From Psychrobacter sp. BI730 (GTDB lineage Bacteria > Pseudomonadota > Gammaproteobacteria > Pseudomonadales > Moraxellaceae): a DNA stretch of 64,000 bases. Within the stretch, counting starts at the first letter, position 1; each line of letters begins with the position of its first letter. The notes under the pieces were generated by a model that worked only from the letters and a program-made list of their open reading frames with translations, was not told the DNA's origin and did not search any database. Of the stretch, positions 52,540 through 64,000 are shown piece after piece. Position numbers and translations under genes: made by a program. The stretch covers positions 230,452 through 294,451 of the forward strand of contig NZ_JAATTV010000001.1 in NCBI RefSeq assembly GCF_013414195.1, in the 5' to 3' direction.

Positions 52540-54564
52540 ATGAACCCGTATATTATACCATCGACTCTAAAGTCAAGAGTAACGCGTTGGATAGCTCTAC
52601 CATCCTTATTAATACTGCTACCTAATTATTTAGCTTTTGCAGCGATAACAACATGTCCTGCTGGATACATTTCTGATGAGTTTTCAAGCGTTGATTACAG
52701 CAACTTAGGATCGACAGCATCACCACCTATTCTTGGTGTAAACCAACTTTTAAATGGACTTAAAGGTGAAAACTACGTCATTGCATCTAATAGCCTTAGT
52801 ACTACTGGCACTCTAGATTCCGGAGGTTCCAACTTTTATAGTCCTAAAACGCTAGCGGGCAACCTCCAATCGTTTGAATTTTTTCAGGACTTTGCTACCA
52901 AGGAATCTACTCGTACGGTTTCGTATACTTTTACAAATAATTTTAGTAAGCAATCACAAGCACTTGATAATGTCAGCTTAAGTATCTATGACATAGATGT
53001 GAACTACGTAGCGACAGGAACAGGTAGTAGTAATTTAGGTGTTAGATATTTTGAGTTTTCTGACCAAGTGACAATAACAGGCTTCACCAGCGCAGGTGCA
53101 CCGGTAACTCCAATTCGAAAATATAGCGGTGCCGGAATGACGACTACGGCACCTTATCGCCAAACGACCACAACTTCTGACGTTCTATGTAGCACAGACT
53201 CAATAGACGAAAAATGCAAAGTGTCGGTAGCTTTTGATCAACCTATAGTCAGAGTAGATGTAACTTACGGCAATAATCCTAATTTAGAATATTATGACTT
53301 TAATAGTATCGGCAACCCAGGTGACCAACTAATTAATATTGTGTTTGATGGCTACTGCTATCAACCGCAGCCGCGTCTAACATATACAAAAGCGCTTTCA
53401 ACTTCTCGTAAAACGAATAACGATCAATTTACTGTCCAAATCAAAGACAATGCAGATAATTCGGTCGTTACGAGTGGCATTACTTCTGTTACTACAACGG
53501 GATCGAATAACACTGTCACGACTGGTACAGGTACTACAGGAACTTTCAAAGTTAATCCTACCAAGACCTATACATTGACAGAAGCAGTCTCAGGATCGAC
53601 AAATTTAGCAGATTATACTGCCTTATATGCTTGTAGAAAATCAGATGGTACATCCGTTAGCACTTTAGACCCAAAAAACCTTAAGCTAACTTACGGAGAC
53701 AACTGGACGTGTACAATCACAAACGGCAGCCCTAACTATGTCTTCTCAGGCACTGTCTTTAACGATAATGGCGGTATTACTGCTGCAGACTCTACTAAAC
53801 AGAATATTACTAACACCTTTACTGCAAATAGTGCTTACTTTAATGGCATCTTAGATAGTAACGAGTCTGGAATATTTGACAGTGCGTTACAAGTTACTTT
53901 AACAAACTGTAACGGTACTAAGGTTATTACAAGCTCAGCTAATCCACAAACAGTATCAAGTTCAGGTAAGTACAGTTTTACTGTTCAACCAAGTGCATTG
54001 CCAACTAGAATCTGCTTAGTGGAAACCGAGCCAACCTCATGGGTTTATAGTGTAGATACCACTGCTAATACCAGAGAAGTATCACTTAATAATGGCACCT
54101 ACATATATAACAATTTAGACTTTGGGGAAGTTCAGGCGAATAACGCTTCTTTAGTGCTTATTAAATCGCAATATGTCCATAATTGTAATATCAATACAAA
54201 CTTTAACGGTACTACTGGTACACCTTCTCAAACCCCTGCATTTAGTATTGCAGAAATAAAAGACATAGAACCCGGAAAATGTATTGCTTATAGAATTGAA
54301 GCTTATAACCGAGGTCATGTTGATTTGAAAGATATTCAAATCAACGATCAATTACAGGTAAAGTCGCAAACCAACTTGGTAACCTCTGTTTTCGCTTTGC
54401 CAGTTCCTAAAGGAGATCCTACTTCTCTCTATACTGGCACAACTCTACCGACAGGTACTATTACCTCTGAGCTGTTTAACTTAAACAAACCTACTGGATC
54501 AACTCCTACCAAAGCCACGCTATATTTTAATACTAAATATGGCACGACTATGGACACTCAGTAG
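52540..54564 (+). CDS. Secreted DUF11/SdrD-B-like surface protein
   Basis: This 674-residue protein has a signal peptide (residues 1-34, ending FAAIT) and is rich in Thr, Ser, Asn and Gly, as in extracellular adhesins. The middle has a conserved-repeat-like module ITKAL to TNGSPNY. An SdrD-B-like region starts at YVFSGTVFNDNG and ends near NNLDFGEV. The C-terminal module (IKSQYVHNC to DIQINDQLQ) carries two cysteines and the CIAYRIEAYNRG motif. The same module recurs in the 716-residue protein downstream. GGAG precedes the ATG at 52540; the frame itself opens earlier. Its own terminator follows. It probably lies on the cell surface or is secreted; partner and ligand are unknown. Confidence 0.8.
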   Translation: MNPYIIPSTLKSRVTRWIALPSLLILLPNYLAFAAITTCPAGYISDEFSSVDYSNLGSTASPPILGVNQLLNGLKGENYVIASNSLSTTGTLDSGGSNFYSPKTLAGNLQSFEFFQDFATKESTRTVSYTFTNNFSKQSQALDNVSLSIYDIDVNYVATGTGSSNLGVRYFEFSDQVTITGFTSAGAPVTPIRKYSGAGMTTTAPYRQTTTTSDVLCSTDSIDEKCKVSVAFDQPIVRVDVTYGNNPNLEYYDFNSIGNPGDQLINIVFDGYCYQPQPRLTYTKALSTSRKTNNDQFTVQIKDNADNSVVTSGITSVTTTGSNNTVTTGTGTTGTFKVNPTKTYTLTEAVSGSTNLADYTALYACRKSDGTSVSTLDPKNLKLTYGDNWTCTITNGSPNYVFSGTVFNDNGGITAADSTKQNITNTFTANSAYFNGILDSNESGIFDSALQVTLTNCNGTKVITSSANPQTVSSSGKYSFTVQPSALPTRICLVETEPTSWVYSVDTTANTREVSLNNGTYIYNNLDFGEVQANNASLVLIKSQYVHNCNINTNFNGTTGTPSQTPAFSIAEIKDIEPGKCIAYRIEAYNRGHVDLKDIQINDQLQVKSQTNLVTSVFALPVPKGDPTSLYTGTTLPTGTITSELFNLNKPTGSTPTKATLYFNTKYGTTMDTQ

Positions 54565-54614
54565 CTATTATTTCTTGCATCTTTAAAATATTACTGATGT
54601 TCTTTCTAACCAGA

Positions 54615-54646
54615 AAAAGCCCTGTCTACCCAGACAGGGCTTTTTA
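54615..54646 (+). terminator. Strong intrinsic terminator
   Basis: AAAAAGCCCTGTCT (54615-54628) pairs perfectly with AGACAGGGCTTTTT (54633-54646). It separates the first surface gene from the later ones. Confidence 0.95.
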
Positions 54647-54833
54647 CCGTTTAGCTACCTCGAATTACCATTTGTCATCTTTATAATGAATATTTGTATC
54701 GGTTACGTGACAATAGCTCAATGAGAAATATAGGCATTTTGCAGACAATACTCATATGAAACTGTAGATAGTTTTATTATGACTCAAAACATTAATAGCC
54801 CAATGATAGCAACGGTATAAGAAAGGATTTTAT

Positions 54834-55298
54834 ATGAAACGTTTCAAGATTTTACGCAGTGTTTTATTAGCTACGTTAGCCTCTAATTGTCTACTAAATG
54901 TAGCACATGCTGATGATGCTCTAAAAATGGAATTGACGTCTAATCAAGTCGTAAAAAACTCGGAAGGTAAAACGATTTATACACCGGTACGTACCGCACC
55001 AGCAGGTACAGTAATCCAATATAAAGCAACTTATATCAATACCATCAACAAAGATATTAATGACTTGATGGTAACTCTGCCTATTCCTACTAACATGACA
55101 TTTACTGGTGAAGCAGTCCCTGCGAGCGCACAAGCCAGCACGGATGGTAAGAACTACGCTGACATGCCGCTGATGCGTAAAGTAGACGGCAAAATGGTTA
55201 AGGTTCCATATTCTGAATACCGTACGCTACGCTGGAATATTAAGCTATTACCAGCTAAGAAATCTGCAGCCGTTGCTCTTAATACCACCGTCAATTAG
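54834..55298 (+). CDS. Small secreted DUF11-like protein
   Basis: The 154-residue protein has a signal peptide (MKRFKILRSVLLATLASNCL to AHA) and a single beta-rich domain. The stretch IQYKATYINTINKDINDLMV resembles the DUF11 pattern, in which a polypeptide states a polarity of tissue-like repeats. AAAGGA precedes the ATG. It is probably cotranscribed with the next gene, which starts 79 bases later. It may be a minor subunit or periplasmic helper of the surface structure; this is inference. No cysteine is left in the mature form. Confidence 0.75.
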   Translation: MKRFKILRSVLLATLASNCLLNVAHADDALKMELTSNQVVKNSEGKTIYTPVRTAPAGTVIQYKATYINTINKDINDLMVTLPIPTNMTFTGEAVPASAQASTDGKNYADMPLMRKVDGKMVKVPYSEYRTLRWNIKLLPAKKSAAVALNTTVN

Positions 55299-55377
55299 TT
55301 CAGTAACTATTAAGCCCCAACTCTTTCGAAACTCTAACTTTTAATCTAAGTTCTTACCATCTCTTGTGGAGCATTAT

Positions 55378-57528
55378 ATGAAATCAAATACTTTTAACTA
55401 CAGCGTGCTTGCTGTCGGTGTTGCGGCTGTTATGGGTCTATCTACTGGAGCGAATGCTGCAACCCCTACTGGTGGCACTTCAGGCTCTTTCAATGTTACT
55501 AACAAAGCGACAGCTTCTTATACAGTTGCAGGTAGTGATGCTTCACAAACTGCAGAGTCAAATGTAGTTACAGTGAATGTTACTGAAACAGGGTCATTCT
55601 CTTTAATCTCAACAGTAGTAGACGATGTAAAAGATGATGATTTTGGTAAAGACCGTGCCATTAATGCGCAAGCGAGCTCAACAGTAGACTTTACTCATAC
55701 ACTAACTAACGGTGGTAACGTTAACGACACTTATAAGATCACTCTTGCTAATATAACTGGCGATAATTTTGACTACAACCTTGGCAACAGTGTTATTAAG
55801 TATCAAAAGGTTAATGCTGCTGGCACTAACGTTGGTGGGGAAGTCACTATTGCTAATAATGAATCAATTGCGTTAGCACCAGGTGAAAAAGCTCTAATCA
55901 CAGTTACTGCTCAAGCTGATACTAAACGTGTTGCTGATACTAACGGTATCCTTACGGTTACTGCTGAAAGTACGTATTTGAAGTCTAAATCTGCAAATAC
56001 AGACCCTGCTACCTATACAGCAGTAAACACCGATAATGCGTTGACTAAGACACCTATTTACGCAATTACCAAGTCAGCTACGACCAACCTTGGTAACAAA
56101 AACTTTGACTTAAACAATACTGATGCTTTTGTTGACTACACTATTACTGTCAAAAACGAAGGTAATATCAGTGGTACTGCAATTAGCATCTCAGATGATC
56201 TACCATCAGGTTTAGTAGCGATCGCATCAGGACAGCAAAACTATAAAGCACCTTCTGTTGCAACATCTAATGGTAGTGCGGTGGGTACTGCTGTCCTTTC
56301 GAACAGTAACAAAACAATCACTGTAGCTGGTCAAAACATCAAAGTGGGCGAAACTATTACAGTTACTTTCCGTGCGAAAAAGGCAACTGATGCAACATCT
56401 AGTAGCTTATTTACCAACTATGCAGTTGTTAGAGATAATACTAATAGTGATGTAAATGCTAATACCCCTGATATCATTGATAGATCTGATGATGGTGTGA
56501 CGCCGGGTGGTCTAACAGAAAGCACTTATGAAAACCCTGCATCTCCTCTAACAGGTAAAGATGACAATACTAATGCAACAGTGACGACGACTAATCAGAC
56601 TCGTGCTATTGCTATCACTCCAGGTGTAAACAAAGAAGTAGCTTTAATTACTCCTGAAACTAATAACAAGGCTGCTAATACTTATACTTATACCATTACA
56701 AACAATGGTACTGACATCACAGAAGCAGCAGGAACAGGTGATAATGACAGCTCTGTTAAACTGTCTATAAAACCGACTGCCACTAGAAATTCTGGCATTA
56801 GCGATGATCCTAATATCAGTATCACACGTGTATACGTAGATGCTAATAACAATGGTGTATTTGATATTGGTGAAACTGAACTCGTCGGTGTGAATGGTAT
56901 TTATGAGCTGAACGCAGCTACTCCGTTTGTGACAGGCAGTACCACCAATCGCAAAGGCCTAGCTCCTGGCGAAAGTGTCAAAATTGGTGTGCAAGTTACC
57001 ACGTCAGGTGAAGGGAGTAACGATCCAAACTCCACACAAGCTAATGTAAATAACATAGGCGATTTTGAAACTTTAACCCTATCTATCCAACCTAAGGGTC
57101 CAGTTAACGGTACCGCTGTACCTACTAGTACTTCTGATAACCCATTGTCTACAACGTCTACTACGATCATGCAGGGCATTAATCTAGCGAAATACCAAAT
57201 AGTAGATAGTTGTGGTGCAAGTCCTGCTGTTAACTCTGCTGCATGGGTGACTGGAAATCTAACAGCGACTGCTGCTCAATGTATCTTCTATAAATTAGAA
57301 TCTAAGAACACTTTCACTGATAGCGCTAGAGTTATTAATAATCTTGTCGTATCAGATACTTTGGCACCTACGCTAACGTATCAAGCCAACAGCTTTTCAG
57401 CCTCGCCGACGGCAACTGACCAGTCCCTTGGTCAGACAATAAAGGTTACATTTGCAACGGTAAATGCTGGTGCAACAGCCAACGTTGTATTCTCTGCAAA
57501 ACCTTCACAAACTGGTACTAATCAATAA
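55378..57528 (+). CDS. Secreted multi-module DUF11 surface protein
   Basis: This 716-residue protein begins with a signal peptide (MKSNTFNYSVLAVGVAAVMG, ending GANAA). It contains about four beta-rich modules. Features include TITVKNEGNISGTAISISDD, a DUF11 signature, and the DxNxNG loop VYVDANNNGVFDIGETEL. The C-terminal module has two cysteines (IVDSCGAS and AAQCIFYKLES), like the end of the 674-residue protein. GGAG lies seven bases before the ATG, so this start is better than the frame opening at 55366. Two hairpins follow it before the barrel gene. High Thr/Asn/Ala content and no membrane helix fit an extracellular polymer or adhesin. Its partner is likely the barrel. Confidence 0.82.
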   Translation: MKSNTFNYSVLAVGVAAVMGLSTGANAATPTGGTSGSFNVTNKATASYTVAGSDASQTAESNVVTVNVTETGSFSLISTVVDDVKDDDFGKDRAINAQASSTVDFTHTLTNGGNVNDTYKITLANITGDNFDYNLGNSVIKYQKVNAAGTNVGGEVTIANNESIALAPGEKALITVTAQADTKRVADTNGILTVTAESTYLKSKSANTDPATYTAVNTDNALTKTPIYAITKSATTNLGNKNFDLNNTDAFVDYTITVKNEGNISGTAISISDDLPSGLVAIASGQQNYKAPSVATSNGSAVGTAVLSNSNKTITVAGQNIKVGETITVTFRAKKATDATSSSLFTNYAVVRDNTNSDVNANTPDIIDRSDDGVTPGGLTESTYENPASPLTGKDDNTNATVTTTNQTRAIAITPGVNKEVALITPETNNKAANTYTYTITNNGTDITEAAGTGDNDSSVKLSIKPTATRNSGISDDPNISITRVYVDANNNGVFDIGETELVGVNGIYELNAATPFVTGSTTNRKGLAPGESVKIGVQVTTSGEGSNDPNSTQANVNNIGDFETLTLSIQPKGPVNGTAVPTSTSDNPLSTTSTTIMQGINLAKYQIVDSCGASPAVNSAAWVTGNLTATAAQCIFYKLESKNTFTDSARVINNLVVSDTLAPTLTYQANSFSASPTATDQSLGQTIKVTFATVNAGATANVVFSAKPSQTGTNQ

Positions 57529-57541
57529 ATAATTCAATCTA

Positions 57542-57577
57542 TTTATCTACGAGTAGTAAATGCTACTCATAGATAAA
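57542..57577 (+). other. Hairpin after the 716-residue protein gene
   Basis: TTTATCTACGAGTAG (57542-57556) pairs with CTACTCATAGATAAA (57563-57577) with one mismatch. No T-run follows, so it may protect the upstream mRNA. Confidence 0.65.
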
Positions 57578-57579
57578 CC

Positions 57580-57620
57580 CTCTAGCTTGACCTAATCGAT
57601 TTTGATGAACCAAGCTAGAG
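57580..57620 (+). other. Second hairpin, in the barrel gene leader
   Basis: CTCTAGCTTG (57580-57589) and CAAGCTAGAG (57611-57620) pair perfectly with a 21-base loop. The loop holds an ATG at 57605, an alternative start. It lies 38 bases before the chosen start. Confidence 0.6.
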
Positions 57621-57658
57621 ATTTATTACCTCTTTATGTTTTATTGGATAAGCGACAT

Positions 57659-60600
57659 ATGACTCTATCAATTATGACACCGTCTAATCGTACTACGTTG
57701 CATACAGCGAAGATCTCTGCGCTGACGGCTGCAATGTTGCTTATGCAATCAAATATGGCATTTGCTGCACCCACCACTCTTGTACAAACTATCAATAACA
57801 TTGCTAATGCAGCTTATGACGTTGATTCTATCAAACAGAATAGCATTTCAAACCAAGTACAAGTCAAAGCCTCTGCCTTACCTGAATATGGTATTAACTT
57901 AACTCAGCATGCTTTACGCACAGTCATGCCTAATACACAGGTAAGTTGGACTAACGTACTGAGTAATACTAGCTATAGTGATCAGACTGTCGAGCTAACG
58001 CTAAATGTTTCGCCTACTCTATCTAATTTACAAGTTTATCAAGATTTAAATAAAAACGGTATTGTCGATAGTGGTGATACACAACTGATTCTTGATAACA
58101 TGAGTGCCCAAATCAAGCTTGGTCAGAGTGAAAGTATTCAGCTTATCGTACAGGCTTTGTCAGATGCCAATGGTAAGGATGGCGATACTGCTGACGTAAA
58201 AATTGGCGCTATCATACTAGAGGATCCATCAATAGCAGCTGTCGAAGCAATCGATAGACTGCTTATTATCGAACCTGAAATCAAATTTACGACTCCTCAA
58301 TTCGATGGTACTAAAACCGACTCGCAAATCGGTGACAACGTTTATATTGATGCCAGTTATGCACAGTGCAACGTGCAATCTGATAAACCTGATCAAGTAT
58401 GGGTTACTGTTAATTCGCCAAAAACTGGAGATAGCTATTCACTTAAAGCTATAGAAACTGGTAATAACACAGGTAAATATCAGCTATCAGCATCCACTCA
58501 AAATAACGCTAACGCTATTGATGATAAGCTTATCCAAACCTTGAACAGCGACACATTGACTGTCAGTTTAGATGCTTGTATCGCCCCTTCGGTTGGTACT
58601 GGTGCTGATGAACTGCCGAATGCGTCTGACTTCACCGTGCGTATCAGTGATCTGAGCTCACAAATTAATATCGTCGATGACAACCCAGCTTTAGTTGTCA
58701 CAAAGGAAAGTGACGTAAAAAGTGCTGAACTCGGCGATTATGTCAGCTACACCATCAATATCACGAACAATGGTAACGCTACTGCTTACGATGTACAGCT
58801 AAAAGACGCATTACCACGCGGTTTTGATTATGTCGATAGCAGTGTGCGTGTGAGCCCAGCGACTGCTATCGATATCAATCAGACACAGACTACTGAGTTT
58901 AAGTCTGACGGTAAATATCAGGTATTGAACTTAGGCAATATGGCAAATGGCGAAAGTAAAAAAATTACTTATCGTGTGCTTGTCGGTGCTTCATCACTAG
59001 GTGGTGATGGTATCAACCGTGCAATCGCAGTTGCTAACAACGAGCAAGGCCAAAGCTTAGTATCAAGAGAAGCGCAGTGGAAAATTGATGTAGAACGCGG
59101 CGTCATGAATACTGACGGTATCATCGTCGGTAAGGTCTATCACGATATCAACCGTGATGGCATTCAGCAAAAAGAAGACGGCGAGCTTGGCGTTGCTGGT
59201 GTACGTATCTATATGGAGAACGGCAACTTCATCGTGACTGATCCTGAAGGTAAATATAACTTCTATGGTGTCAGTGCTAAAACACACGTACTAAAAGTTG
59301 ATCGTACTACTATTCCTAGAGAAACTGAACTGGTCACTCAGAGCAATCGCAATGCTGGTGATGCCGGTAGTCGTTTTGTTGATTTGAAATATGGCGAATT
59401 ACATCGTGCGGATTTTGCAATCGTTGGTGGCATGGCAGATAGCACTGAACGCTTAAACGCTGAATTAATTGCTCGTAGCAAATTAGTAGAAGCTAAAAAT
59501 GACACGTTAGAGCAAGCGGTAAAAACCGAGCTGACTTTAGATCCTGACTATGATACCGATACTACCGATAATGTAGATGCTAGTGGTTGTAACATCAATG
59601 GTGACTTAGACCTTGGTAATAGCTGTGATTCGGCTATCGTTAATGACATGGTCAATCCAGTAGATAGCCGTGTTGATATGACGGTAACCACTGTTGCTCC
59701 GCCAGTAGAAAAAGAGCTCGAAGAATACTTAAAAGAAGTGGCGAGTAATGATGTTGCTTTCATCAACCTAAACGAAGGTCAGCAGCTTAGCACTTATAAA
59801 CAAATGGTACAGGTTCAGGCACCGCTTGGGTCTGTGTTCACACTGTATGTCAATGGCAAAGCTGTATCAGAACAAAAAATAGGTAAGACTGCTGAACAAG
59901 AAAAACAGAATGTAACGGCTTTTGATTACTATGCTGTTGATTTACAACGCGGCAAGAACACCTTACGCGGTGTTGCGACTGATATAAATGGTCAGGTCAT
60001 CTCTGAGCAGACGATCAAAGTATTAACTCCTGATAGCCTACAAGCTATCGGCTACCGTACTCAGGAAAATCTAGTACCAGCTGACGGTATTAGTGAATAT
60101 CAGGTAGTCATTAGTCTAAAAGATCGTGATGGTCGTCCATATATTGCATCAACTCCGATTACTATCGATACGAATATCGGCCGAGTTAATCTAAAAGATG
60201 GCAGTAAAGACCAATCTGGCACTCAAGTAATCGTATCCGGTGGTGAGCTGTTAATACCCGTAACTGCGCCTAGCGTACCAGGAAAGGGCGAGCTAGTAAT
60301 TGACACGGGTAGCAGCAAACAAATCATTCCGTTACAGTTTACCGCTCAATTACGTCCACTACTCGCTGTGGGTATCGTAGAAGGCGCTATCTCGCTTAAA
60401 GACTTTGATGGCGGCAGCATTACTGATGCTCAAGGCGCATTTGAGCAAGAGCTCAATGAGATTTCTGGCGATGACAACTATTCAGCGACTGGTCGTGCTG
60501 CTATGTTCCTCAAGGGCAAAGTACGCGGCGACTATCTGCTGACATTAGCATATGACAGTGATAAAAAAGGCGAGCGTTTGTTCCGTGATATCGAGCCGGG

Positions 60601-62977
60601 CGAATACTATCCTGTCTATGGCGACTCATCAGCCAAAGGCTTCGATGCGCAGTCTACTAGCAAGCTTTACGTGCGTCTTGATAAAGGTCGCTCGTTCGCT
60701 ATGTATGGTGATTTAAAAACGCAAATTGATAACGATGAAGGTATCAAGCTTGGTCAATACAACCGTACATTAACTGGCCTAAAGGCTCAATTTGAAGATA
60801 GCAATACTCGTGTTACTGCCTTTTTAGCAGAGACCAGTACTAGCCAACGTGTAAATGAGACTCGTGGTTTGGGCATTTCAGGCCCATATCCATTGGCTGA
60901 GAACTTCGATGCGGTATTAGAAAACTCTGAAACGGTTGAAGTTATTACTCGTGATGCCAACAACCCTGGGTTGATTATCAATCGTGAGACGCTTACTCGC
61001 TTTGCTGATTATGAGATCGACCCTATCAGCCGTAGCTTATTCTTGACGGCACCAATTGCTAGTCAGGATATCGAAGGCAATCCTATCTATATCCGTGTCA
61101 CTGTAGAAGTTGATGAGGGTGGTGAAGATTATTTGGTTGGTGGTATTGCCGCGAAACAGCAACTGACGGATAAAGTCGCCATCGGTGGTAGCTATGTGAA
61201 TAGCGATGACCCATTGAACAAAGAAGAGTTGGCTAGTGTTAATAGTGTTGTTAAATTCAATGATAAGCTAAAGCTGGTCGCTGAATATGCGATGAACAAA
61301 GCTGAAAACCCAAATTTTCAGTCAAGTAATCAAATCAACGCGACAGAACTGACTGATAGTGATGTTGAAGGTAACGCACTACGTATTGAGCTTGATTTTG
61401 ATAATAAGAAAAATACACGAGCTAAAGCTTATTATAATGATGCTGATGAAGGTTTTGTCACTGGTGCATCACCGCTTACGGCTGGACGTACTGAGTCTGG
61501 TGTAGAGGTTACTCATACTTTAAATGATAAGAAAACTGCTCTTAAGTTAGAAGGCATACGCACAGAAGAGCATACTACTGACGCTAGCCGCGAAGGCGTT
61601 CAAGCGAGCATTGAGCATCGTTTAAGCGAAAACATCGTTGGTGAAATTGGGGTTCGTTATTACAAACAAGATGCGACTGCTGCCTCACGTAATACTCAAG
61701 CCGCGACAGACGTTGTAGATATTACAGACGACACTTTGTTTAATGATGACATTATCAATCAGTCAGCGTTAAGCAGTGTTAGTAACGCTGAAGAAGATAT
61801 TGAAGGCACGACTGTTCGTGCTCGTATTACCTCTCGTCTACCTAAGTTGAATGATAGCTTGGTATTTGCAGAGTATGAGCAAGATATCGAAAACAGCTCA
61901 CGTAATGCGACTTCTATTGGTGGTGAGACACCGCTCGGAAATCTAGGACGACTATACGCACGTCATGATTTGATTAATAGCCTATCTGGCACTTATGGTC
62001 TTGATGATACAGATGAGCGTCAACGTACCACTGTTGGTTTTGACGCGACTTACATGAAAGATGGTAAGGTTTATAGCGAATACCGTATGCGCGATGCCAT
62101 CAGTGCACGCGAAGCAGAAGCAGCCATTGGTCTAAAAAACAAGTGGTATGTTCAAGAAGGGCTAACTTTAAATACGTTATTTGAGCGTGTTGAATCTCTG
62201 GAAGGTGAAGAAAGTAACACTGCAACAGCGGCAGGTATCGGTGTTGAATATCTTGCCAAAGAGAATTATAAGGCATCAGGACGTTTTGAAAAACGTTGGG
62301 GCGAAACAAGTGATACGCTACTTGGTAGTGCTGGTATCGCCTATCGCTATACCGATGAGGTTACCTTCTTAGCCAAAGACATCTATTCACGCACTGACTA
62401 TAGTGATGGCGATCGCACTATCAATCGTTTTCAGCTAGGTGCTGCGTATCGTGACTACGATAGCAATCAGTTAGATATGCTTGCAAAATTCGAATATCGT
62501 TTGGATGATAATAATACTGGCGATGACGCTTACCAAAAAGACACCATGATTTGGTCATGGAATGGTAATTACCATCCTACGCGTCCTTTAACGTTGTCTG
62601 GACGTTATGCTGGTAAGTATACAGAATACGAAGCAGACAGCTTAACCAGCGATAACACGGCTCACGCTGTTTATGGCCGTGGTCTTTATGACATCAGTGA
62701 GCGCTGGGATATTGGTTTACAAGCAGGTACTTATTGGAATGATCAGGCGAATGACTTGGCTTATATGCTTGGTGCAGAAGTGGGTTATAGCCCAATGACC
62801 AACCTTTGGTTATCACTTGGTTATAACTTCATGGGCTTTGAAGACGAAGATATTGCTTATGACGACAGTACTCAGCAAGGTGCTTACTTTAGATTGCGCT
62901 TTAAGTTCGATGAAGACTTATTCAAACGTGAAGACCCACGTAAGAACCAACGTCTAAGCAGCAATTCTGCATTTTAA
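57659..62977 (+). CDS. Outer-membrane beta-barrel with DUF11 and SdrD-B-like domains
   Basis: This 1772-residue protein has a signal peptide (residues about 1-36, ending MAFA). Next come DUF11 repeats, including VVTKESDVKSAELGDYVSYT, and an SdrD-B-like domain with VYHDINRDGIQQKEDGELGV. A linker and two Ig-like domains follow, with IQVQAPLGSVFTLYVNGKAV-like segments. From about residue 940 the sequence (AMFLKGKVRGDYLLTLAYDS, YYPVYGDSSAKGFDAQSTSK) shows alternating strands typical of an outer-membrane barrel, and it ends in SNSAF, with C-terminal phenylalanine. A weak GGATA box precedes the ATG at 57659; ATGs at 57605 and 57674 are other choices. It may anchor or export the adjacent DUF11 proteins. 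Confidence 0.82.
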   Translation: MTLSIMTPSNRTTLHTAKISALTAAMLLMQSNMAFAAPTTLVQTINNIANAAYDVDSIKQNSISNQVQVKASALPEYGINLTQHALRTVMPNTQVSWTNVLSNTSYSDQTVELTLNVSPTLSNLQVYQDLNKNGIVDSGDTQLILDNMSAQIKLGQSESIQLIVQALSDANGKDGDTADVKIGAIILEDPSIAAVEAIDRLLIIEPEIKFTTPQFDGTKTDSQIGDNVYIDASYAQCNVQSDKPDQVWVTVNSPKTGDSYSLKAIETGNNTGKYQLSASTQNNANAIDDKLIQTLNSDTLTVSLDACIAPSVGTGADELPNASDFTVRISDLSSQINIVDDNPALVVTKESDVKSAELGDYVSYTINITNNGNATAYDVQLKDALPRGFDYVDSSVRVSPATAIDINQTQTTEFKSDGKYQVLNLGNMANGESKKITYRVLVGASSLGGDGINRAIAVANNEQGQSLVSREAQWKIDVERGVMNTDGIIVGKVYHDINRDGIQQKEDGELGVAGVRIYMENGNFIVTDPEGKYNFYGVSAKTHVLKVDRTTIPRETELVTQSNRNAGDAGSRFVDLKYGELHRADFAIVGGMADSTERLNAELIARSKLVEAKNDTLEQAVKTELTLDPDYDTDTTDNVDASGCNINGDLDLGNSCDSAIVNDMVNPVDSRVDMTVTTVAPPVEKELEEYLKEVASNDVAFINLNEGQQLSTYKQMVQVQAPLGSVFTLYVNGKAVSEQKIGKTAEQEKQNVTAFDYYAVDLQRGKNTLRGVATDINGQVISEQTIKVLTPDSLQAIGYRTQENLVPADGISEYQVVISLKDRDGRPYIASTPITIDTNIGRVNLKDGSKDQSGTQVIVSGGELLIPVTAPSVPGKGELVIDTGSSKQIIPLQFTAQLRPLLAVGIVEGAISLKDFDGGSITDAQGAFEQELNEISGDDNYSATGRAAMFLKGKVRGDYLLTLAYDSDKKGERLFRDIEPGEYYPVYGDSSAKGFDAQSTSKLYVRLDKGRSFAMYGDLKTQIDNDEGIKLGQYNRTLTGLKAQFEDSNTRVTAFLAETSTSQRVNETRGLGISGPYPLAENFDAVLENSETVEVITRDANNPGLIINRETLTRFADYEIDPISRSLFLTAPIASQDIEGNPIYIRVTVEVDEGGEDYLVGGIAAKQQLTDKVAIGGSYVNSDDPLNKEELASVNSVVKFNDKLKLVAEYAMNKAENPNFQSSNQINATELTDSDVEGNALRIELDFDNKKNTRAKAYYNDADEGFVTGASPLTAGRTESGVEVTHTLNDKKTALKLEGIRTEEHTTDASREGVQASIEHRLSENIVGEIGVRYYKQDATAASRNTQAATDVVDITDDTLFNDDIINQSALSSVSNAEEDIEGTTVRARITSRLPKLNDSLVFAEYEQDIENSSRNATSIGGETPLGNLGRLYARHDLINSLSGTYGLDDTDERQRTTVGFDATYMKDGKVYSEYRMRDAISAREAEAAIGLKNKWYVQEGLTLNTLFERVESLEGEESNTATAAGIGVEYLAKENYKASGRFEKRWGETSDTLLGSAGIAYRYTDEVTFLAKDIYSRTDYSDGDRTINRFQLGAAYRDYDSNQLDMLAKFEYRLDDNNTGDDAYQKDTMIWSWNGNYHPTRPLTLSGRYAGKYTEYEADSLTSDNTAHAVYGRGLYDISERWDIGLQAGTYWNDQANDLAYMLGAEVGYSPMTNLWLSLGYNFMGFEDEDIAYDDSTQQGAYFRLRFKFDEDLFKREDPRKNQRLSSNSAF

Positions 62978-62990
62978 TTATTTGATACTA

Positions 62991-63028
62991 ATGATACTGT
63001 CGTAAGTACAATCTTATGACAGTATCAT
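62991..63028 (+). other. Hairpin after the barrel gene
   Basis: ATGATACTGTCGTAAG (62991-63006) pairs with CTTATGACAGTATCAT (63013-63028) with one mismatch. No T-run follows. It may be a weak terminator or mRNA stabiliser. Confidence 0.6.
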
Positions 63029-63132
63029 GCTTGTCTTATGATGAGTTATTTTGTCATTCAATAAACAACTAAGTCAGCCCTAGTAATGGTAAATAATACC
63101 AACGTTTATTACCTTAACATAAGGTTTACACC

Positions 63133-63898
63133 ATGTTTGATTCAGCCATCAATGCAGCACCTTTCAAGCGCTCAGTATGCGTTACACTATCAGCTTTATT
63201 TTCGTTAACCTTTATGCAGCCAGCTTTAGCTAAGAGTGAGACTCTCCAAGTAGCTAACTCAACTAGCATGGGTGAATATTGCCGCGATGATAGTCAGACT
63301 CAAACACGCTCTTATAGATATCAAAGCGAACAGCAGCGCCTATTAAATTGTATGGTAACGCAGTTAAAACCTTATCAACAAAAAGACAAGACAGTAGCTC
63401 AACAGTATTTCGCATATAAAGCGCAAGCGTGGTTGAACTATGCCATCCATCAAGACAGTATGAATAGCCGCTCATCTGCTGGTCAAGTTGCGTTAGAAAT
63501 GGCAGAGCCTATATTGCAAGCGCTAGATAATGACACGGTACAAGACTTGGGCTTGCATCAAGATATTCCGTCTACCTCTGCTCTAATGCGTCCTGATCTA
63601 TGGGCAACTTTAAGCGCACTTAAAGATGGTGATGGCATAGCGTCAGCACCACGTGAGATGGCATTGAGTGAAGTGGCTTTAATTTGGGCTGCGACCAATC
63701 AATGCGCGCGAATCTGGCATGCATTTTCGCATGGCTGATCGCTGGCTTGAGCAGGCCCGCGAAGCTTACGTCAATGCCAATGACTCACAGACCAATGTAG
63801 CACTAGAGAAGTCAATAGTCAGTTACCATAAGCAGTACTCGCCTTTAGACGCGAGCGATGATACTTGCCGTGGACAAGATTTGATATCTAATCGTTAA
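63133..63898 (+). pseudogene. Frameshifted secreted protein of the surface cluster
   Basis: The reading frame starts at ATG 63133 (AAGG eight bases upstream), with a signal peptide ending at ALA, and encodes 201 residues to a stop at 63738. The last residues RIWHAFSHG look out of frame. Shifting by one base inside GCGCGCG near 63705-63712 gives CAESGMHFRMADRWLEQ and continues to TAA at 63896. So a one-base insertion, or a sequencing error, splits one gene of about 255 residues. The intact form would have four cysteines and no repeat domain. It probably belongs with the surface system. I do not recognise a family. Confidence 0.7.
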
Positions 63899-63912: not shown

Positions 63913-63927
63913 ATTAGAGATATTAGA

Positions 63928-64000
63928 CCTCTTGCAAAAGTCATAAGCTAAGCTCGAAATTAACAAGACCGGCGAACAGCTTCATTCTAAGATCATAGCG
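63928..64000. mobile_element. Possible end of an IS5-family insertion sequence
   Basis: AGACCTCTTGCAAAAGTC near 63928-63945 resembles the terminal repeats GAGACCTTTGCAAAA seen in IS5-group elements of Neisseria and Moraxellaceae. The window ends before any transposase, so this cannot be confirmed. Confidence 0.3.

Follow-up and report, generated by a model that had tools for sequence, protein, structure and literature searches.

A stretch of 64,000 nucleotides from Psychrobacter sp. BI730 (assembly GCF_013414195.1, contig NZ_JAATTV010000001.1, positions 230,452 to 294,451; here called the window, to which all coordinates refer) carries near its end a cluster of five genes, P1 to P5, all of them on the + strand. 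Its largest member P4 (57659-62977) encodes a protein of 1772 residues with a signal-peptide-like N-terminus, a DUF11 domain, an SdrD_B-like domain, two Ig-like domains and a very large predicted beta-barrel; P1-P3 are located upstream and P5 downstream of it. Sequence comparison inclines us, by a small degree, to the reading that the P4 barrel exports and anchors DUF11-type surface proteins which are tagged by a shared C-terminal domain (CTD). A wider proposal is put forward tentatively, as something short of probable: the cluster may represent an unrecognised outer-membrane secretion system in which a barrel of more than 30 strands reads a C-terminal tag derived from DUF11 and both exports and retains fibres of up to several thousand residues wherever they are encoded, i.e. 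an equivalent of type IX secretion beyond the Bacteroidota.

The barrel is predicted for residues 941-1750 of P4 (60479-62908). Two AlphaFold2 models (pLDDT 81.9 and 79.1, pTM 0.69 and 0.73) present the C-terminal part of about 810 residues as a very large outer-membrane barrel with 38 strands of at least 8 residues in each, and the 50 PDB matches that Foldseek listed for the barrel-only model are without exception outer-membrane barrels, headed by E-value by SprA of type IX secretion (5.7e-7; TM-score 0.23). SlpA of Deinococcus radiodurans (8ae1) has rank 1 in one search and rank 6 with the barrel-only model, and in a second structural comparison TonB-type barrels lead. An antiparallel C-terminal barrel, already proposed in the initial annotation of this DNA, is thus supported as a prediction by both models and by the structural matches. 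That annotation let the barrel end in phenylalanine, which is literally the last residue of P4; as the last modelled strand stops about 22 residues earlier, this phenylalanine is probably not the closing signal of the barrel.

The DUF11 and SdrD_B-like domains ahead of the barrel had also been named in the initial annotation. DUF11 (residues 345-458, 58691-59032) was found by Pfam (PF01345) with 51.2 bits against a curated cut-off of 24.6, and the SdrD_B-like domain (residues 492-557, 59132-59329) with 29.5 bits, which is 0.2 bits below its cut-off of 29.7. Two Ig-like domains (residues 714-913, 59798-60397) follow ahead of the barrel. A solved CLIPPER domain (9ifr) aligns with the DUF11 of P4 (E 0.0015); in this sequence alignment the Lys and Asp columns of the isopeptide triad correspond, and the aligned stretch does not reach the Asn. 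Among the solved relatives of this DUF11 domain GhpA (9flp, E 0.0008), the grappling-hook protein of Aureispira, scores best.

Relatives of the barrel occur in alpha-, beta-, gamma- and deltaproteobacteria, Verrucomicrobiota, Cyanobacteriota and, weakly, in Deinococcus; no Bacteroidota are among the 80 barrel loci collected. The best 120 matches for P4, as well as for an 11-row profile, comprise near copies only, and all named ones belong to Psychrobacter. We define as P3-like a same-strand open reading frame (ORF) of at least 290 aa with a match to the P2/DUF11-type profile that ends at most 400 bases from the barrel ORF. Of the 80 loci, 65 have 3.5 kb or more ahead of the barrel gene (15 being omitted); in 62 of these 65 a P3-like gene is found directly upstream, and likewise in 62 a P2-like gene upstream. 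Two of the three loci counted as lacking P3 (L021, L025) do carry such an ORF, which overlaps an over-long barrel start. All 203 ORFs that match the P2 profile, taken from the 80 loci, 11 plasmid loci and the window, are on the strand of the barrel. On the downstream side the 68 loci with 4 kb after the barrel (12 of 80 omitted) comprise 23 with a P5-like gene and 23 with a further DUF11 protein. In the family Moraxellaceae P4 has a match in 51 of 119 genomes, one of them (G096) with a stub of only 36 residues that was scored as no barrel, leaving 50 genomes with and 69 without a barrel; P2 is found upstream in 44 of these 50 and P5 downstream in at least 33. In a phylum sample of 398 genomes a barrel match at E 1e-10, in some cases a partial one, was obtained in 56, which belong to 33 of 212 genera. 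This recurrence of homologous clusters across many taxa means that the arrangement is not due to chance. Co-occurrence, for which the initial annotation suggested a search across Moraxellaceae, is indeed conserved; this frame proved too narrow, since several phyla and also proteins encoded away from the barrel are concerned. A tandem duplication is seen in another Psychrobacter genome (L127, G116:C1:84500-104400) with the order P2-P3-P4-P1-P2-P3-P4. On a plasmid of Acinetobacter haemolyticus (L002:9600-11803) the P3-like gene is present as several short annotated pieces and the barrel and the downstream genes are whole.

P1, P3 and other DUF11 proteins encoded around the barrel share a C-terminal domain. 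Its profile was made from the last 150 residues of 58 P3-like proteins, with P3 of the window excluded, and it matches 45 of 54 other DUF11 neighbours; these 54 include some contig-cut proteins and some P3-like ones that the gap rule had set aside (for example L003 with 880 aa, L030 with 882 aa, L041 with 972 aa). In 39 of the 45 the best match ends at most 12 residues from the C-terminus, the six others being L071 (190 aa), L074, L076 (cut off), L078 (591 aa), L083 and L090. Where a protein has several CTD hits the C-terminal one is the best (18 of 18). Within the window the profile matches residues 564-709 of the 716 of P3 (domain at 57067-57525) and residues 530-655 of the 674 of P1 (54127-54561), stopping 7 and 19 residues before the respective end; by alignment the last strand of P1 reaches its C-terminus. 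Conserved positions in the CTD alignment are Lys-x-Gln, Pro, Cys, Tyr, Asn, Asp and a Phe in the final strand. The idea that P2 is a bare CTD was dropped: the profile covers only residues 32-104 of 154, so P2 contains a related small DUF11-like domain and is not the tag itself.

At E 1e-6 the CTD was detected in 45 of the 50 Moraxellaceae genomes with a barrel and in none of the 69 without (Fisher 1.5e-27, uncorrected for kinship), and within Psychrobacter in 18 of 19 against 0 of 7 (1.2e-5). In this sample of 119 genomes, in which P1 and P3 were not searched individually, no CTD protein of their kind turned up in the absence of a barrel. Since a profile built from neighbours of the barrel tends to vanish together with the cluster, the stronger point is the presence of the CTD on proteins that are encoded elsewhere. 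There are 25 places with a CTD on another contig or far from the main barrel match, and 11 of them were fetched; among the other 14, three (G027:C3) are near a second barrel-like match. Three of the fetched proteins (L134, L136, L137) were dropped because they belong to clusters that are interrupted by contig ends: L134 and L136 are located beside aceE like P1, in L136 the CTD match stopped 47 aa short of the C-terminus, and L137 is followed at the contig end by a possible start of P4. The remaining eight proteins are found beside unrelated genes, and in all eight the CTD ends 0-11 residues from the C-terminus. They comprise 617 to 4622 residues, three being incomplete at the start, and occupy three positions (one common to two genomes, L129 and L130; one common to five Moraxellaceae genomes, L131, L132, L133, L138 and L139; L135 alone), the second of which is beside or near a gene that we take to be parC/gyrA-like. 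No barrel match is present within the fetched stretches around them, and in one genome (G060, L129) 710 kb of a single contig separate the CTD gene from the barrel. The two that were scanned for domains (L129, L131) contain SpaA_3, SpaA_4, DUF11 or Calx-beta, with SpaA_3/SpaA_4 repeats in the protein of 4622 aa (L131). The default bias filter of hmmsearch missed L129-L132, which with --max give matches from 5e-10 to 4e-20.

A second line of evidence is found in loci where P4 is divided into two genes. In all ten split loci, from alpha- and betaproteobacteria, an unnamed proteobacterium, cyanobacteria and Deinococcus, the DUF11-SdrD_B part of P4 (about residues 345-587) matches near the C-terminus of a separate upstream protein (best E from 2e-8 to 4e-54). 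Judged by the longest frames, seven of these loci show a four-base overlap between the stop of the first gene and the start of the second; the annotation of the records agrees in L004, L006 and L011, places the barrel start 14-17 bases past the stop in L012 and L013, and is missing for L009 and L082. In Eleftheria an OmpA domain is located ahead of the barrel in the barrel protein, and in Croceibacterium at the end of the giant upstream protein. The order DUF11, SdrD_B, (OmpA) and barrel thus remains constant in one chain or in two, which argues for physical contact between the DUF11-SdrD_B part and the barrel. OmpA binds peptidoglycan, so the junction between both parts would be in the periplasm. 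A chain of 3400 residues of Ig-like repeats, if extended, is too long for the periplasm, and its remainder may be passed out through the barrel.

The following course of events can be proposed. Sec would bring the proteins into the periplasm, where the CTD would be the tag recognised by the barrel; the chain may then pass through the barrel or dock on it and would be held there by its CTD or by the SdrD_B/OmpA end. P5, which in many relatives has an OmpA domain of the peptidoglycan-binding type, could fix the complex to the cell wall, and the DUF11/SpaA repeats would project as adhesive fibres stiffened by isopeptide bonds. That the barrel anchors or exports its neighbours had been suggested before on the basis of the gene arrangement; this suggestion is now backed in part, at the level of sequence, by the CTD that tracks the barrel and by the fused and split pairs.

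Several observations weigh against export by the barrel. The TM-scores to the solved barrels listed do not exceed 0.31, and large barrels need not export proteins, as exemplified by SlpA of Deinococcus. The CTD profile was trained on neighbours of the barrel and the genomes are not independent of each other. In the phylum sample the CTD profile has matches in 37 genomes, of which 29 possess a barrel and 8 have no barrel match, and 27 of the 56 barrel genomes are without a CTD match. Most of these eight match the generic DUF11 half only; in one of them (G340:C27:138113-138550) the match covers nearly the whole profile in a frame of 1252 aa, with no barrel at E 1e-10. In Moraxellaceae the CTD profile has no match in four genomes with barrel relatives (G013, G039, G072, G084), and a fifth (G080) possesses P2, barrel and P5 with no P3, P1 or CTD. 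Two genomes (G096, G074) have P2 and P5 side by side at the dehydrogenase genes described below, with no P1, P3 or barrel there, one (G042) has P5 without a barrel, and four (G008, G105, G108, G111) have a P2-like gene without a barrel. This means that P2 and P5 are not strictly tied to the barrel.

Among the other explanations the best surviving one, in our view still unlikely, assumes an anchor without export. P4 would be an envelope connector similar to SlpA or OmpM with periplasmic N-terminal domains, barrel and P5 would tie the outer membrane to the wall, and P1-P3 would dock there after crossing the membrane by another route. It is favoured by the likewise very large barrel of SlpA, a top Foldseek match (8ae1), and by OmpA domains, which occur next to the barrel and also at the end of 16 of the 27 aligned P5-like rows (Pfam-checked for one). 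Such a connector poorly accounts for the CTD on proteins encoded elsewhere, which is seen only in the presence of a barrel, and for the tightly packed pairs of giant and barrel genes. Distinctly less probable is an autotransporter-like function, in which P4 exports only its own N-terminal part and the neighbours are separate adhesins that share the locus. The order of passenger and barrel corresponds to it, and the split loci resemble two-partner secretion with the barrel as transporter of the DUF11-SdrD_B protein. The conservation of P2 and P3 as well as the association of CTD and barrel would then be coincidence, and the Pfam scan of P4 (E 0.01) revealed no POTRA, no Omp85/ShlB-type and no autotransporter domain (including PF03797). 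An uptake function, with P4 as TonB-dependent-type transporter and the DUF11 proteins as surface receptors in the manner of SusD, is hardly credible: several relatives are annotated as TonB-dependent receptor and TonB-type barrels lead the second comparison mentioned above, but the same scan gave no plug or TonB receptor domain, the strand number is well above the 22 of TonB-dependent receptors, and CTD fibres of several thousand residues encoded elsewhere are unlike ligand receptors.

The other genes of the cluster have the sizes given by the initial annotation, which also described the last one correctly as frameshifted. P1 (52540-54564) encodes a likely secreted protein of 674 aa with a signal-peptide-like N-terminus, a SpaA_3 domain (Pfam, residues 280-395), which is prealbumin-like, and the CTD at the C-terminus. 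It is followed by a perfect inverted repeat of 14 bp with a loop of 4 bases and a T-rich end (54614-54645, + strand), which we read from the sequence as likely terminator between P1 and P2. Due to this strong repeat P1 is probably transcribed apart from P2-P5. The repeat is not among the terminators of a pattern scan, probably since its T run is located within the stem; that scan gave 25 promoter sites against a shuffle mean of 32.1 and 13 terminators against 8.1, and was not used. P2 (54834-55298) encodes 154 aa with a signal-peptide-like N-terminus and a single small DUF11-like domain, and P3 (55378-57528) 716 aa with a signal-peptide-like N-terminus, DUF11-type sequence and the CTD at its end; its DUF11 is borderline (24.1 bits against a cut-off of 24.6), and TIGR01451 is above its own cut-off. 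All signal peptides were assessed by eye without a predictor.

P5 (63133-63898) is, judged from sequence, a helical partner with a signal-peptide-like N-terminus and without an OmpA domain. Its first frame stops at 63738 and the homologous end continues in another frame to 63898; the frame changes near 63.7 kb, and intact ORFs of about 260-300 aa are found at the same place in several related genomes. We dropped the view that the gene was cut by an insertion element, as the repeated element described below starts only past the end of P5 and as another locus (L074) has an intact P5 of 258 aa that ends in a similar way and likewise lacks an OmpA domain. What sets this genome apart is therefore the frame change alone, possibly a sequencing error near the contig end. 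The last base of the window is the end of the contig, and the sequence at 63921-64000, outside the system, recurs at three other positions of this genome (88-100% over 78-81 bases) besides one short partial match. This repeated, IS-like element begins about 23 bases past the end of P5; its edge GACCTCTTGCAAAAG resembles an IS5-type end. No tRNA was found. Adjoining the cluster are divergent genes that we take to encode pyruvate dehydrogenase E1 and E2. One and the same chromosomal site occurs in differing states, with P2 and P5 only (L123, L124), P2, P4 and P5 (L128) or a P2-like gene only (L125). In G008 a P2-like gene stands alone at the dehydrogenase genes.

Compared with known systems the cluster shares single features with several of them. 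A search by PADLOC gave for P4 a single weak match without meaning, and the literature search, from which most subscription papers and bioRxiv preprints lay outside, found by title and abstract no paper describing the cluster, the barrel or the CTD. Chaperone-usher pili differ, as Pfam gave no usher (PF00577) in P4 and no PapD-type chaperone in P2. Type 11 secretion (DUF560/Slam) likewise provides a dedicated outer-membrane barrel for surface proteins in Proteobacteria; the differences are that P4 has no DUF560 and that P1-P3 show no Pfam match to the C-terminal eight-stranded barrel of its predicted cargo. In PMC12282271 DUF11 occurs as a whole word once; a link to type 11 secretion through DUF11 in the literature was dropped, since the matches were mostly to DUF1194. 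Another close paper is PMC9210967. Classical autotransporters (type Va) have the 12-strand barrel of PF03797, which is absent from the scan of P4 with its 38 modelled strands. Two-partner secretion (type Vb) is similar in the adjacent genes for exoprotein and barrel of the split loci. Its exoproteins carry an N-terminal TPS domain and the tag proposed here is C-terminal; moreover, P4 lacks matches to POTRA or Omp85/ShlB-type domains and its barrel is far larger. SlpA/SDBC of Deinococcus radiodurans, among the top structural matches, is a large barrel tied to the envelope as well. It has 30 strands and an SLH domain before the barrel and is not known to have a DUF11/SdrD_B part; P4 gave no SLH match in Pfam.

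According to PMC12617251 DUF11 is the isopeptide domain CLIPPER, SdrD_B and SpaA_3 are also of the isopeptide type, and an adhesin of Acinetobacter silvestris has an OmpA-like anchoring domain. Gram-negative fibrillar adhesins with DUF11, SdrD_B or SpaA are thus known, and in the papers found, as far as their text is accessible, the outer-membrane route is absent; the main text of PMC12617251 names none and contains "outer membrane", "secretion" and "translocat" 0 times. The barrel partner proposed here would supply this route. What comes together in the cluster is a dedicated barrel, a partner often with a wall-binding domain and a shared C-terminal tag. If export by the P4 barrel is true, it would explain how many Gram-negative surface fibres get outside, the CTD profile would list such fibres straight from genomes, the barrel would be among the largest known, and about one in seven genomes of the phylum sample would have the barrel of such a system.

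The closest parallel would be type IX secretion (SprA/Sov) of Bacteroidota. On the side of difference the cargo tail of the Psychrobacter cluster is a DUF11-type domain, and no T9SS sorting domain was matched in P1, P2 or P3 (NCBIfam and Pfam, E 0.01), PorV, PorK/N and the motor genes not being searched for. SprA_N (PF14349) gave no match in P4 or its own genome, but it gave none in the 14 control genomes either. On the side of likeness both possess a very large barrel, with SprA heading the Foldseek list for the barrel-only model, and the combination of a barrel with CTD-bearing cargo is the logic of type IX secretion in PMC12618676. From the sequences compared, the cluster appears to belong to none of the secretion families tested and to work like type IX secretion in its logic.

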